Shown here: one piece after another, positions 38,986 to 49,700 of the stretch
Position numbering within the stretch: the stretch's first letter is position 1
How the letters are laid out: each line of letters starts with the position of its first letter
Assembly: GCA_903844155.1 (NCBI GenBank)
Contig: CAIMSU010000268.1
Span: 1 to 64,000, forward strand
Source: an uncultured Pseudomonadota bacterium
GTDB lineage: Bacteria; Myxococcota_A; UBA796; SXON01
Length of the DNA: 64,000 nt
Direction: 5' to 3'
The notes under the pieces: model-generated
The model's input: the letters and a program-made list of their open reading frames with translations, nothing else
Told to the model about the DNA's origin: nothing
Databases searched by the model: none
Translations under genes and position numbers: made by a program

Positions 38986-39744
38986 TCACACGGGACCGGG
39001 GGCGGGTGCCATCGGCGGGCGGCGCACGCTCAGCGCGACAGCGACCACCGTCCCGAGGCATACCCACTGCACGAGGGTGAACCCGAGCGTCGGCCCGGTG
39101 TCGCCGCGCACAAACTCCAGCACGAAGCGGATCGCGGCGTACCCGGCCAGATAGTATCGAAAAAGCCAGCCCTCCGGCCGAACGGTGCGGCGGATCGACC
39201 AGAGCACCGCAGCCAGCGTAAGGTCCGCGCCCGTCTCCACGAGCTGCTGCGGGAAGCGCCCGCCGATCGCCAGCCACCCGCACGGCCCGGCCGTGTCGAC
39301 GTGCACACCCGGGCAACACCCGTTGAGGAAGCAGCCGATCCGGCCGATCCCCTGCGCCAACGGCACGCTCACCGCGAACCCGTCCCCGGTCGAATGACGG
39401 ACCCCGACGATCCGCTTCGTGACCTCCACGCCAAGGTAGGCGCCGCCGATCCCGCCCACGACCGTCTTCCCGGTAAAGTCCATCGCCAACGCGGCGTTCC
39501 AGAGCGCCCGCATGTCCGCGGCGAACAGCAGCATCCCCACCTTGGACCCGATCATCGCGCCAAGGAGGGCGCCCGCGCCGACGTACACATGCCCCGGGGT
39601 TCGCGCGTAGCCGAGACGCCGGACCTCAGCGCGGCGGACCACAAACGCCACGACGAAGCCGAGGAACACGAGCACCGCGTAGGCGCGGATGGGAACGCCG
39701 CTGACGGTGAGGAGGACCGGGTACACGCCGCTGAACCGTATCAT
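38986..39744 (-). CDS. lgt: Prolipoprotein diacylglyceryl transferase-family protein
   Basis: 252 aa, multi-pass membrane protein with at least six hydrophobic helices. Family marks: PIRAYAVLVFLGF at the start, TVVGGIGGAYLGVE, the catalytic-loop region GIGRIGCFLNGCCPG (about 137-151) and EFVRGD near the C-terminus. Lgt attaches diacylglycerol to the lipobox Cys of prelipoproteins. The loop here has GCCPG where canonical Lgt has the Asn-Gly-Glu motif, a variant seen in a paralogous subgroup, so the substrate may differ. The many lipoproteins in this window imply at least one working Lgt in the cell. Confidence 0.82.
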   Translation of the reverse strand: MIRFSGVYPVLLTVSGVPIRAYAVLVFLGFVVAFVVRRAEVRRLGYARTPGHVYVGAGALLGAMIGSKVGMLLFAADMRALWNAALAMDFTGKTVVGGIGGAYLGVEVTKRIVGVRHSTGDGFAVSVPLAQGIGRIGCFLNGCCPGVHVDTAGPCGWLAIGGRFPQQLVETGADLTLAAVLWSIRRTVRPEGWLFRYYLAGYAAIRFVLEFVRGDTGPTLGFTLVQWVCLGTVVAVALSVRRPPMAPAPGPV

Positions 39745-39793: not shown

Positions 39794-39934
39794 ATGTCCG
39801 ACCAGAACACAGGCAGCAGCGTGCTCAAGAAGGTCCTCATCGGCGTCGCATTGGTCGGCTGCCTCGGCGCCGTGACCGTGACGGCGCTCGCGTTCTTCAT
39901 GCTGTGGGAGTGCGACCATGCGAGCATTGAGTGA
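39794..39934 (+). CDS. 46-aa single-pass membrane protein
   Basis: Starts MSDQNTGSSVLKK, with GGAG 5 nt before the ATG; a single hydrophobic segment (VLIGVALVGCLGAVTVTALAFFML) spans about 14-37. It ends in ECDHASIE and overlaps the next gene's start by 17 nt in another frame. No family recognised. The good ribosome binding site and overlap support a real gene. Confidence 0.6.
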   Translation: MSDQNTGSSVLKKVLIGVALVGCLGAVTVTALAFFMLWECDHASIE

Positions 39935-40586
39935 GGCCGTCCCGGGTCGCCCGGCGCGGCGGTCGCGGCGGCTGAGCGCGCCGTCGATGGTCGTTGGGAC
40001 CGTCGGAACGGTCGGGGTGGCCTGGTTCGCGCTGTGGGCGTGCGCGCCGATGTCGACGATGCCGGTGCCGGGCGCGATCGACTCGAACACGAGCGAGTTC
40101 GGCGTGGGCGGAAACGCTACGTTTGGAGCCGCATCTACGACGAGCACCACCATCGCCCCCGGCATCGGCGAGAGCGGCCAGTTCTGGTACGACCACCGCT
40201 TCGGGAAATTCGACTTTGGCGGCGGTGTGTTCGCCGGAAATTCGAGCCTTGTAGGCGGTGGCCTGTTCTTCGGCGGGATGTTTCCCGTCGGCAAGATCAA
40301 CCTCGGCTTCGAGATCGCCGGCGGGTTCCTTTGGGCAGAGGCGGGGATCCCGCTGACGGTCCCGCTCGGCGACCACGCGTGGCTCTACACCGAGCCAAGC
40401 ATCGGCATTCGCGCGCAGCTCGCGCGTCTGCCCGTCGGCGTCGGATTCCGCCTTGGCAAGCACTTCATGCTCGCGCCGGAGGTGGCGGTCGAGTACGGCG
40501 CTACAACCTCGCCGATCCGCCCAACCGGCACGTTCCCCCAAAGCCTGGCATTTACAGGCGCTTTCTCCGCCGGCTACGGCTTCTAA
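39918..40586 (+). CDS. Outer-membrane-like beta-barrel protein
   Basis: 222 aa. A long basic N-region, then a hydrophobic segment ending in ALWAC, which could be a lipobox (Cys near residue 42). The remainder has alternating Gly/aromatic strands (FDFGGGVFAGN, GGGLFFGGMF, INLGFEIAGGF) and a C-terminal aromatic residue (GYGF), typical of small barrel proteins of the outer membrane. Function unknown. Overlaps the 46-aa gene upstream; the next gene begins 8 bp later. Confidence 0.75.
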   Translation: MRALSEAVPGRPARRSRRLSAPSMVVGTVGTVGVAWFALWACAPMSTMPVPGAIDSNTSEFGVGGNATFGAASTTSTTIAPGIGESGQFWYDHRFGKFDFGGGVFAGNSSLVGGGLFFGGMFPVGKINLGFEIAGGFLWAEAGIPLTVPLGDHAWLYTEPSIGIRAQLARLPVGVGFRLGKHFMLAPEVAVEYGATTSPIRPTGTFPQSLAFTGAFSAGYGF

Positions 40587-40594
40587 GGCCCCTT

Positions 40595-42037
40595 TTGGCG
40601 CAGACCCGACCCTACCTCTACTACGACGCCGCCGTGTCCATCTGCAACGTCTGCCTCCGCCGCGTCGAGGGCAAGATCGTCTTCGAAGATGGGAAGGTCT
40701 ACCTCGACAAGTGGTGTCGCCTCCACAAGCACCAGCGCACGCTGCTCTCGGACGACATCGACTTCTACCGCAGGGGTCGAGAGGTCTACCTCAAGCCGCC
40801 GGAGATGCCGCGCCACTTCAACACGCCGCAACACTACGGCTGTCCCTACGATTGCGGGCTTTGTCCGGAGCACATGCAGCACTCCTGCCTCTCGCTGCTG
40901 GAGGTGACCGACCTCTGCAACCTGCGCTGCCCGGTCTGCTACGCCGAGAGCGGACCCCACCGCGGAACCGCTGGGAACAGCGCGCACCGCCCGATGGACA
41001 CGATCCGACGCATGCTCGACGCCATCGTCTCCAACGAGGGTGAGCCGGACGTGGTGCAGCTTTCCGGGGGTGAGCCGACGTTGCACCCGGACTTCTGGGC
41101 GATCCTGGACGAGTGCAAGGCGCGGCCGATCCGGCACTTGATGCTCAACACCAACGGCATCCGGATCGCGCGCGAGCCCGGCTTCGCAGAGCGACTCGCC
41201 AGCTACCAGCCTGCTTTTGAGGTCTACCTGCAGTTCGACAGCCTGCGCGCCGGGCCGCACGAACAGATGCGGGGCCAGGACCTGCGCGCGATTCGGGAGG
41301 CCGCGCTCGCGAACCTCGAAGCCGCGAACGTCAGCACCACGCTCGTCGTCACGCTGATGAAGGGCCTGAACGACGACGAGATCGGCGACATCATCCGCTA
41401 CGCCCTGACCTTTCGCTGCATCCGCGGGGTCACGTTCCAGCCGGTCCAGCACGCCGGTCGCACCGAGGGTTACGACCCTGCCGTCCACCGCCTCACGATC
41501 AGCGAGGTCCGTCGGAAGATCATCGAGCAATCCGGCTTGTTCACCGATCGCGACGTCCTCCCGGTGCCCTGCAACGCCGACTGCCTCGCCATGGCCTACG
41601 CCTTGAAGCCCGGCCCCGGCCTCCCGGCCATCCCTCTTACCGGCCTCGTCGACCCCGCCGTCTTCATCGAAGGCAGCCGCAACACCATCGTCTACGAGCG
41701 GGATCCGACCCTCAAAGCGCACTTCATCAAGCTGTTCGCGACCAACCACTCACCCGAGGGCGCCGCGAACTGCCTCGCCGACCTGCTCTGCTGTCTGCCG
41801 ACCGTTGCGTCCGGGACGCCCGAACTCCCCGCCTTCAAGTACGAGAACCTCTTTCGCGTCATCATCATGCAGTTCGTCGACGCCGAGAGCTTCGATCTGC
41901 GCGCCGTGCGCAAGAGCTGCGTGCACATCGCCACGCCCGAGGGCAAGATCGTCCCGTTTGACACCTACAACCTGTTCTATCGTGACGGCAAGCGCGAGCG
42001 GTTGCGGGAGCTGCAGGCAGAGATTGATCCCGACTAG
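40595..42037 (+). CDS. Radical SAM protein of the Tes (tetraether lipid synthase) type
   Basis: 480 aa from TTG 40595. It opens with CNVC (C17, C20) and a later Cys (KWCRLHKH), which fits a rubredoxin-like site; then CPYDCGLCPEH (C83, C87, C90) and the radical SAM motif CNLRCPVC (C108, C112, C115), followed by GGEPTLHPDF. More cysteines (PCNADC, CLADLLCC) follow in the C-terminal half. This order, in particular the CGLCPEH...C-NLRCPVC pairing, matches archaeal Tes (MJ0619 type), which joins lipid tails by C-C bond formation. Lipid tail coupling is therefore a reasonable guess. Stop overlaps the convergent barrel protein. Confidence 0.85.
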   Translation: MAQTRPYLYYDAAVSICNVCLRRVEGKIVFEDGKVYLDKWCRLHKHQRTLLSDDIDFYRRGREVYLKPPEMPRHFNTPQHYGCPYDCGLCPEHMQHSCLSLLEVTDLCNLRCPVCYAESGPHRGTAGNSAHRPMDTIRRMLDAIVSNEGEPDVVQLSGGEPTLHPDFWAILDECKARPIRHLMLNTNGIRIAREPGFAERLASYQPAFEVYLQFDSLRAGPHEQMRGQDLRAIREAALANLEAANVSTTLVVTLMKGLNDDEIGDIIRYALTFRCIRGVTFQPVQHAGRTEGYDPAVHRLTISEVRRKIIEQSGLFTDRDVLPVPCNADCLAMAYALKPGPGLPAIPLTGLVDPAVFIEGSRNTIVYERDPTLKAHFIKLFATNHSPEGAANCLADLLCCLPTVASGTPELPAFKYENLFRVIIMQFVDAESFDLRAVRKSCVHIATPEGKIVPFDTYNLFYRDGKRERLRELQAEIDPD

Positions 42038-46773: not shown

Positions 46774-49700
46774 ATGAGCAAGAAGAAAGACACCGAAGAC
46801 GCCGGGTTTGGAGACCTGGAGAACGAGTTCTTCGGGTCGTGGGGAGAGGAGGAGGACGATGGCGGCGTGAAAGCCGCCGCGAAGGCGGAGGCGGACCGCG
46901 TGGAGGCGCTGGCGAAGGCCGAGGCGGCGAAGGCTGAAGCGGCGGCCAAGGCTGAAGCGGCGGCGAAGGCTGAAGCGGCAGCGAAGGCTGAGGCGGCGGC
47001 GATGGCTGAAGCGGCGGCGAAGGCCGAGGCGGCGGCGATGGCTGAAGCCGCAGCGAAGGCTGAGGCGGCGGCGATGGCTGAAGCGGCGGCGATGGCTGAA
47101 GCCGCGGAGGATGCGACGAGATCGGAGGCCGCGAGGGCTGCCGAGGCGAGCGCGGCGGCGGCGAGCGCGGATGCCGCCAGGCCCGACGGGCCGGTGCGCG
47201 AAGTGTCTGACATCTTCCGGCGCAAGACCGCGAAGGAACGGAAGGCGGAAGAAGCAGAGTTGAAAGCGCGAAAGGCGGAGGAGGAGATGCTGGCTGCCGC
47301 CGAAGCATCCGAGCGGGCACGCGCGACCGCCGAGGCCGACGCGATCGCCGAGATGCGCCGAGCGGACGAGGCGTTGCAGGCAGCGAACGCGGCCGCACAG
47401 ACAGACGCGGAAGCCCTCCGCAAGCACCTGGCCGAGGAGGCTGAGGCCGCCGAGGGTGAGCGCAGAGCCACGGCGGTCGCCGCGGCAGCCGTCGCACCGG
47501 TGACCGTGGCCGTCGCCCGACCGAGGTCAAACCCCACGCTCGTCTTCGACCCCACAGAGCTGCAGGCCGAGCTTGGCGATGGCCCCTCCGAGGACGCCGA
47601 AACGCAGATGGAGCCGGTGCTTCGCTCGCTGATGGAGAACCAACCCGAGCCTGAGCTCGTGGCCGTTGTGGTGCCCCGAACGCCGATCGTGAGCGGGGAG
47701 GGATCCTGGGTGGAGTCCCTTGCGCTGCTGCGCGAAGAGGCGGAGCGCTCGTCTGGCGCCCGCCGCATCACCCTGTTCACGGCAGCGGCGCACTTCGCGC
47801 GGACGCGACTGAGCACCGCTTCCGACGCCCTCGCCATGCTGGATCAGGCCGGTGTGAGCACCCGAACCCGCGGCGAAGGGCGCGGAGACGCCGCCTATTG
47901 GCTTGAGCGCGCCCGGTCGCTGGAGGCGCTTGGCGACCGTGCTGCTGCGGCAGCTGCCTACGAAGCGCTTGGTGCCACGACTCAGCACGCGGCAGAGGCC
48001 GAGGTTGAAGCTGCAAAGCTCTATGTCGCGACCGGCGCGGAGGACGCCGTGGTGGCCGCACTCGGCCGAGCGCTGGCGGAGAGCGAGGACGCCTCGGCCC
48101 TCTCGCTGCTCGTCGAAGTGCAGCGCCGTCGGGCCGACCCCGCGCTGCCGGAAACGCTCGTCCGCCTCGCCGCGATCCACGTCGGCGCGCTCGCCGCCGG
48201 GCTGCTCGTTGAGCGCGCTGGTCTCCTCGCCCACACCCCAGGCGCGGTGGACGCCTGGAAGGCCGCCCGCCTCGCCGATCCGGCAAACTTCGCCGCGCTC
48301 GCTGGCCTCGACGCCGCCCTTCGCGAAGCTGGCGACTGGGTCGGCCTCGCTGAGCTCTACGAGAACGAAGCGGCGCGCGTCGCCGTCGACCCCGGGCTGT
48401 CCCCGCCGATCCAGGCTGCGGAGTCCGCGTGGTGGTGGGCTCGTGCTGCGCGCATCTACCGCGGGCAGGTCTTCCGAAACGACGCCGCGACCCGGTGCTT
48501 CGCCGCTGCGGTCGTCGCCTCGCCCGCCGACCCGGGACTGCGGCACGAGATGCAGGCCCACCTCGCCGAAGCTGGTGATCGCGACGCCCTGCTTGCGGCG
48601 TTGCAGGCGGAGACCGACGCGGTCGCCGGGCCCGCACGCGCGTTCGCCCTCTTCCGACTCGCCCGCGAGGTCGAGGCCACCGACTGGGAGCGTGCTGCCG
48701 GCCTCTACGCGGCAGCCGCCGAAGAGCCCGCCGCCGCCCCCGCCGCCGAGGCCGCGCTACGACTCTACCACAAGGCAGGGCGTTGGCAGCAGATCGTTGA
48801 CTTCCTGGTCCAGCGCGCCTCCCGGCTCCAGGACCCCTCCCTCCTCGTCGCCGTCTGGTACCGCGCGGGCGAGACCGCGGAGGGCCCGCTCGCCGATCTC
48901 AGTGGCGCTCGGGGCTACTACGAGCGTGTGCTGGACCTGGCACCCGGCTACCTGCCGGTGCTTGAGGCGCTGGAGCGCGTCTACCACCGGCTTGGGGCCT
49001 GGGCCGAGCTGGCCGCCGTCTACGAGCAACGGTCACTGCTGGCCGAGGATCAGGCCGGCGCGGCGCTGCAGCGCCACCGGGCGGGCGCGACGTACGAGAT
49101 CCGCCTGCAGAACACGACGCGCGCGAAGGAGTCCTACCGCCTCGCCCTCGCCGCCGTCCCCGATTTTTCCCCGAGCGTGGACGCCTACGCGCGGTTGCTC
49201 GAGGGGGACCAGGAGTGGACCGAGCTCGGGCGCGTGCTCCAGGCTGCCGCGGCGTCGACGAAGGACTCCATGGAAGCCGTGAGCCTGTACTACCGGGCCG
49301 GCCGCGTGCTGGCGGACCACACGGGCGACACCGAGGGCGCACGAACCTGCCTTCGCCGCGCGTTGGAGGCGTCGCCGGGGTTCCTGCCTGCGGTGCTCCT
49401 CCTCAAGGATCTGGCTGCAAACGCCGGGGATCTCGCCGAGGTGCTCTCCCTGGAGCGGGCATCGGCGGACATGGGCGACGATGTGGAGCGGCGCCATTGG
49501 CGTCTGCTCGCGGCGGCGCAACTCGCGGGCGACGGGGAGGAAGCCGACGGGCTCGCATCCCTGGTGGTCCGCGAAGGACCGTCGGCGTCCAGCGGCGCGC
49601 GCGAAGCGGCGTTGGCGATCATGGAGCGGAGCGCGCTTCGTGGCGGCGATGCGTCAACGCTCGCGCGGCTGTATGGCGATGCGGCCGCCTGGGTGCGCCT

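Follow-up and report, generated by a model that had tools for sequence, protein, structure and literature searches.

A bacterial relative of tetraether lipid synthase linked to a dedicated Lgt-like membrane protein and, in many phyla, to small membrane proteins bearing a helix-end cysteine

The gene at 40595–42037 of the window (the whole stretch of 64,000 nucleotides analysed here) codes for a radical SAM protein related to tetraether lipid synthase (Tes), and its clade is linked to a gene for an Lgt-like membrane protein and, in many phyla, to one to three small membrane proteins. We are highly confident that this module exists, and the window holds all three of its parts: a Lgt-like protein, a Tes-like protein and a small transmembrane protein with a helix-end cysteine. 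Context and family knowledge indicate that the module probably acts on glycerolipids.

The Tes-like protein (480 aa, plus strand) is read from a TTG codon at 40595, where no ATG is present, to a stop at 42037; this start is plausible because the orthologue in genome G003 (locus L002, 86% identical) can be aligned from its third residue. The protein combines an HMPTM zinc-ribbon with a radical SAM domain (Pfam PF23545, E 3e-13, and PF04055, E 5e-23), and its sequence matches the tetraether lipid synthase of Methanocaldococcus jannaschii (GDGT-MAS/Tes, MJ0619; 7TOL), its only close solved relative, with an E-value of 1.6e-63. In view of these matches, the motifs of the Tes-like protein cannot be put down to chance. 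An AlphaFold2 model (pLDDT 87.9, pTM 0.88) finds 7TOM and 7TOL as its top fold matches (E 3e-38 to 6e-38, TM 0.76–0.79), with the RiPP maturases SkfB and SuiB among the next-best structural neighbours. The homology to Tes claimed by an earlier, sequence-only reading of this DNA is thus borne out by both sequence and fold, and the three motifs that it quoted, CNVC, CPYDCGLCPEH and CNLRCPVC, all lie in a real open reading frame. The first opens a predicted rubredoxin-type metal site, C17-X2-C20-X20-C41-X2-H44 (CNVC-X20-CRLH; 40643–40726, plus strand), which is 98–100% conserved in the clade and whose spacing is identical to the C9X2C12X20C33X2H36 given for MJ0619 in the structural study (PMC9433317). 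The second marks a predicted N-terminal [4Fe-4S] site, C83/C87/C90/H93 (40841–40873, plus strand), which aligns with C73/C77/C80/H83 of MJ0619 and is 100% conserved in the clade. The third is the CX3CX2C radical SAM motif, C108/C112/C115 (40916–40939, plus strand), recognized in the sequence, by Pfam and by alignment. The rubredoxin-type CX2CX20CX2H motif, the Cys3His N-terminal cluster and CX3CX2C are among the features by which membership in Tes is judged, and all three are found here.

The C-terminal domain departs from this pattern. According to the available part of the structural study, a C-terminal [4Fe-4S] cluster of Tes takes up substrate carbon during catalysis, and the labile Met439 is the sole ligand named in that text (PMC9433317). 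C338, C455 and C470 of MJ0619 are invariant in Tes, in TrsS and in the acidobacterial and C242-type relatives described below, and are conserved at 95% or more in the group of tandem genes; from their 100% conservation we infer that they are ligands of the Tes C-terminal cluster. The window clade keeps the SAM cluster and both metal sites of the N-terminal part, and its three C-terminal positions hold, respectively, a mixture of residues in which Ala is commonest, Ser (84%) and Asp (61%). The window protein itself has S441 for C455 and D456 for C470, and at the remaining position C330, which is not fixed in the clade. Four other cysteines, C326, C399, C400 and C442, are 94–100% conserved in the clade. 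C326 (41570–41572, plus strand), part of this altered cysteine set, reaches 100% in the clade and 41% in Tes; the clade-specific pair C399-C400 (41789–41794, plus strand) reaches 94% and 98%, is not conserved elsewhere and sits in a low-confidence loop of the model (pLDDT <50 at residues 380–410); and C442 (41918–41920, plus strand), which adjoins S441, is fixed in the clade. The C-terminal cluster of the window clade would therefore either have new ligands or be absent. Since the putative Tes ligands are replaced, Tes chemistry is not to be assumed, and the reaction may be unlike that of Tes. The archaeal Tes layout read earlier from the cysteines consequently stands for the N-terminal two thirds of the protein and fails for the C-terminal cluster domain.

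Family models and phylogeny agree in placing the protein outside Tes. It scores 264.4 bits against the NCBIfam model for Tes (NF045702, cut-off 450) and 302.9 bits against that for TrsS (NF045646, cut-off 490), the latter being its highest NCBIfam score, and both values lie below the cut-offs. Two trees (94 and 66 proteins), obtained by quick searches with SH-aLRT as the only support measure, recover the window clade with 100% support, place Tes separately with 99% (including genuine bacterial Tes and MJ0619, the latter's sequence having been rebuilt from a printed alignment that misses its first residues), and set TrsS apart as a third group with 100%. A constraint tree uniting Tes with the window clade is 28 log units worse (AU p 0.076), so that this union is disfavoured and not formally rejected. 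True Tes does occur in bacteria, with 27 of 149 Acidobacteriota genomes above the Tes cut-off (472–619 bits), and in a Bryobacterales genome (G293) a true Tes (573 bits) occurs alongside a window-clade protein (221 bits). The window protein shares with Tes (MJ0619, NF045702, 7TOL/7TOM) the overall fold, the rubredoxin-type site, the Cys3His cluster and the radical SAM motif, but differs from it in its separate clade, its score below the cut-off, its altered C-terminal cysteines, a linked Lgt-like gene that is absent from Tes, and a shorter chain, with about 20 residues fewer from the PVP motif to the cysteine that follows it. Likewise, TrsS has the same N-terminal architecture, but forms its own clade, keeps the equivalents of C338/C455/C470 and has no Lgt-like partner. 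Identity as Tes is rejected on score, tree placement and C-terminal cysteines, and identity as TrsS on score and tree placement; judged by its sequence, the product is a bacterial Tes homologue and not a Tes. The phylogeny with Tes and its bacterial homologues proposed along with the sequence-only reading hence went against assignment to Tes, giving the outcome that the reading itself had named as its refutation, a position outside the Tes clade. This gene gives no grounds for inferring diabolic-type lipids, which that reading had raised as a possibility for the source organism.

The clade is widespread. A scan of named genomes found full-length relatives with 53–64% identity in Bacteroidota, Bacillota, Pseudomonadota, Acidobacteriota, Myxococcota, Planctomycetota, Elusimicrobiota and a melainabacterium, so that it spans at least eight bacterial phyla, and many carriers are cultured mesophiles (Flavobacterium, Mucilaginibacter, Paenibacillus). 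When neighbouring genes were clustered, a membrane protein of family PF01790 emerged as one recurrent gene beside clade members, and a survey of 80 named loci showed no further neighbour that persists across phyla. Of 85 clade loci with 1 kb or more of sequence on either side, 81 have an Lgt-like gene within 3 kb, some of the loci being near-duplicates or MAG fragments; partners were counted by HMM hits only, because GC-biased gene calling produced spurious frames in high-GC loci. The gap to the Lgt-like gene on the same strand is under 60 nt in 67 clade members. Within the same 3 kb, no Lgt-like gene was found beside Tes (0/20), TrsS (0/11) or tandem-type genes (0/21); four of the six C242-type proteins have one, as do two singletons. 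Across 79 named loci, the Lgt-like gene is usually directly upstream on the same strand and often overlaps the Tes-like start by 7–10 nt, a start/stop overlap (−7, −10 nt) that recurs across phyla. Viewed from the other side, a dedicated Lgt-like gene was found in 14 of 148 Bacteroidota genomes and adjoins a Tes-like gene in 12 of them, the other two having none within about 9 kb; the lower-scoring Lgt genes examined (L263–L277) never adjoined one (0/15).

The window's own Lgt-like gene (38986–39744, minus strand) encodes an integral membrane protein of 252 aa that matches PF01790 with 103 bits (cut-off 24.9); E. coli Lgt (5AZB) is the only match to its modelled fold with E <0.001 (E 5e-7). 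The gene is divergent from the Tes-like gene and not co-transcribed with it. The window's genome has five PF01790 genes, two of which adjoin its two closest Tes-like genes. As compared with the prolipoprotein diacylglyceryl transferase Lgt (PF01790, 5AZB), the partner retains the family, the fold, the GR-x-G motif and the C-terminal Arg, but carries an invariant ExxK and a GK[TS]xxGG-type motif, falls below the cut-off of the lgt equivalog TIGR00544 (57.6 vs. 118.9 bits) and is a dedicated copy besides the genome's other Lgt genes. It also lacks the residue that we take to be His103 by E. coli Lgt numbering. This loss was considered as a unique mark of the Lgt-like proteins and rejected, as the best Lgt of the same genome has Tyr there also. 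That top-scoring Lgt (L086, G000:C166), with Tyr at the histidine of the E. coli HGG motif, carries a GCFLAGCC motif.

The candidate for the third component is a small membrane protein of 46 aa (39794–39934, plus strand; MSDQNTGSSVLKKVLIGVALVGCLGAVTVTALAFFMLWECDHASIE), recognized by its sequence, a G003 homologue and the enrichment of such ORFs. It has an N-terminal Lys pair, one transmembrane helix, a Cys at the helix end and a six-residue tail (FFMLWEC-DHASIE), and the G003 homologue (43% identity) occupies the same place and has the same end (FFMFYTC). Most loci of Bacteroidota and Bacillota have, directly downstream, between one and three ORFs for small hydrophobic proteins (65–120 aa) whose last helix ends in Cys followed by a short tail (median 7 residues). 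Such a Cys occurs in 44 of 45 downstream hydrophobic ORFs, a set picked without any requirement for Cys, and falls within the last 25 residues in 43 of these and slightly further in for one; in the single exception (L166), the second ORF copy carries the Cys. These ORFs reach 0.40 per strand-kb in the operon interval vs. 0.016 elsewhere in the same loci and remain 20-fold enriched under looser rules, i.e., overall about 20–25-fold over background. Complete loci with such an ORF number 36/38 in Bacteroidota, 10/10 in Bacillota and 6/18 in Myxococcota, and a strict scan yielded 0/11 in Pseudomonadota and 0/5 in Acidobacteriota, counts to be read with the difficulty of calling small ORFs in high-GC genomes; an HMM search added single further candidates in L092 and L101. 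No such ORFs were found beside Tes (0/27), TrsS (0/12) or tandem types (0/47), and they are present beside other Lgt-linked types.

The charge ahead of the helix is net positive in 67 of 84 small proteins and the tail is near-neutral; the cysteine is preceded by L/F at −3, G/S/A at −2 and often I/V/A/T at −1, and followed by G/S/A at +1. Except for the −1 residue, this pattern resembles a lipoprotein signal, with the Cys predicted at the outer face. The 46-aa protein fails the canonical lipoprotein criterion, having W-E-C and a six-residue tail with neither G/A/S at −1 nor a mature domain. The small proteins also have in common with the MYXO-CTERM/myxosortase system an invariant Cys next to a C-terminal membrane helix; in MYXO-CTERM, however, a Cys-containing motif precedes that helix (PMC11980579), whereas the Cys of the small proteins comes after it, at the very C-terminus. 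Between the small protein and the Tes-like gene, the window encodes a 222-aa exported protein (39918–40586, plus strand) with a LWAC lipobox-like N-terminus, a beta-barrel-like appearance and a terminal Phe, which has no Pfam match and stops 9 nt ahead of the Tes-like start; related ORFs adjoin the module in six Myxococcota loci, making it a possible accessory part.

Three things together suggest a glycerolipid substrate: the linkage to an Lgt relative, a Tes fold with pockets for lipids, and the small proteins. The Lgt-like gene supports a lipid-related role independently. GDGT-MAS/Tes binds two phospholipids, bacterial phosphatidic acid among them (PMC9433317). In the explanation that we prefer, the small protein would insert with its N-terminus in and its C-terminus out, presenting its Cys like that of a prolipoprotein lipobox; the Lgt-like protein would transfer a diacylglyceryl group from phosphatidylglycerol to this Cys; and the Tes-like enzyme, at the membrane, would remove a hydrogen atom from an unreactive carbon in the acyl chain of a glycerolipid and form a new bond there, by chain-to-chain coupling or another C–H modification. 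The explanation as a whole, loading of the small-protein Cys by the Lgt-like protein together with modification or coupling of the acyl chains of membrane glycerolipids by the Tes-like enzyme, we place slightly below an even chance. Of its parts, the loading step is a tentative conjecture, though a serious one, and tail-to-tail coupling is a conjecture that we hold to be doubtful. The −1 residue, often unlike the G/A/S of a lipobox, counts against the proposal, as do the strict scan's lack of small proteins in Pseudomonadota and Acidobacteriota, the two Bacteroidota Lgt-like genes with no Tes-like gene nearby, the divergent orientation in the window and the replaced C-terminal cysteines; the missing His103 is not diagnostic.

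One alternative would make the Tes-like protein a bacterial membrane-spanning lipid synthase that joins two phospholipid tails end to end (diabolic-type or brGDGT-like), the Lgt-like protein swapping head groups or supplying diacylglycerol. Tes homology and fold speak for it, as do a PlsA/Ger-like gene for ether-lipid formation in the same genome and the proposal of such lipids for bacterial Tes homologues (PMC8941075). Yet the clade lies outside Tes, with the Tes-type C-terminal cysteines replaced; the true bacterial Tes of Acidobacteriota is separate and has no Lgt-like partner; and we know of no such lipids from the Flavobacterium, Mucilaginibacter and Paenibacillus carriers. The validated bacterial route, moreover, uses Mss (PMC13274423). 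Overall, we judge this alternative unlikely. The small proteins could instead be the substrate of a RiPP-like radical SAM maturase that would form, e.g., a thioether or carbon–sulfur crosslink at their Cys, with the Lgt-like protein lipidating or handling the product. The small ORFs, up to three in tandem next to the enzyme gene and with a near-invariant Cys, would fit, as would SkfB and SuiB as structural neighbours; but no SPASM domain was matched, sequence and fold are far nearer Tes, the charge rule puts the Cys at the outer face whereas radical SAM enzymes are cytosolic, and the strict scan found no small protein in Pseudomonadota and Acidobacteriota loci, so that we think this improbable too. 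We would give very little weight to a TrsS-like enzyme acting on a small soluble or redox substrate with no link to lipids: TrsS gives the top, sub-cut-off NCBIfam score and other superfamily branches pair with methyltransferases, but TrsS forms its own fully supported clade and has no Lgt-like neighbour.

Several other Tes-like types were encountered. Seven Myxococcota loci (L066, L068, L069, L071, L072, L074, and L075) hold two to three tandem Tes-like radical SAM genes, several of them with ketosynthase, acyl carrier protein, short-chain reductase and FabA/FabZ-like genes, and are possibly a different gene cluster of polyketide or fatty-acid type. A second type, named after the second such locus of the window's genome, G000:C242 (L077, with L078 and L079), has its own Lgt-like gene and a ferritin-like-looking 240-aa ORF; about half of its members have lost N-cluster residues, the C-cluster cysteines being kept, and the operons of L078 and L079 contain a fatty-acid hydroxylase family gene (PF04116), which is consistent with a lipid-related role. 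A further family, common in Acidobacteriota (L221–L223, L083), scores about 310–348 bits against Tes, has lost the N-terminal cluster cysteines and falls inside the Tes side of the tree. On a Mycolicibacterium plasmid (L245) and two haloarchaeal plasmids (L246 and L247), a methyltransferase gene comes directly after a Tes-like radical SAM gene; to our knowledge, GDGTs are not known from these lineages. A PlsA/Ger-like protein of the window's genome (L192:1088–4612, G000:C252) contains DUF2229 and two BcrAD_BadFG stretches, so that the source organism may be able to make ether lipids. Within the window, an 18-bp tandem repeat of 10.3 copies (46923–47107) encodes KAEAAA-type units close to the beginning of a 1867-aa protein.

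Zeng et al. (2022) catalogued 456 bacterial Tes homologues and proposed that they synthesize brGDGTs (PMC8941075), an activity still unconfirmed in 2025 (PMC11868695). Mss (membrane-spanning) and Ger (ether) are the validated bacterial lipid enzymes; Mss likewise couples lipid tails, and its model is reported to resemble Tes, and the available part of the study mentions no Lgt-like partner for either (PMC13274423). Our search, conducted mostly outside subscription journals, found no published description of the radical SAM/Lgt-like pairing or of the small proteins. Screens for Tes have used BLAST limits of 30% identity or looser (PMC11868695; PMC8941075); genes of the window clade could pass such limits, and caution is called for against counting them as Tes. 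With the module described here, the bacterial Tes-like family gains its first functional partners, and carriers such as Flavobacterium, Mucilaginibacter, Paenibacillus and Collimonas are cultured and tractable, which makes the function directly testable. In its most far-reaching form, which we regard as somewhat unlikely, the proposal would describe a cross-phylum system in which mini membrane proteins are lipidated at a C-terminal Cys by a dedicated Lgt relative, and a radical SAM relative of Tes whose reaction-centre cluster is re-ligated then joins or rewires lipid chains, either those attached or neighbouring ones, giving a covalent protein–lipid anchor unlike that of known lipoproteins. 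If the Cys of the small proteins is indeed loaded with lipid, the module would represent a previously unknown route of protein lipidation.
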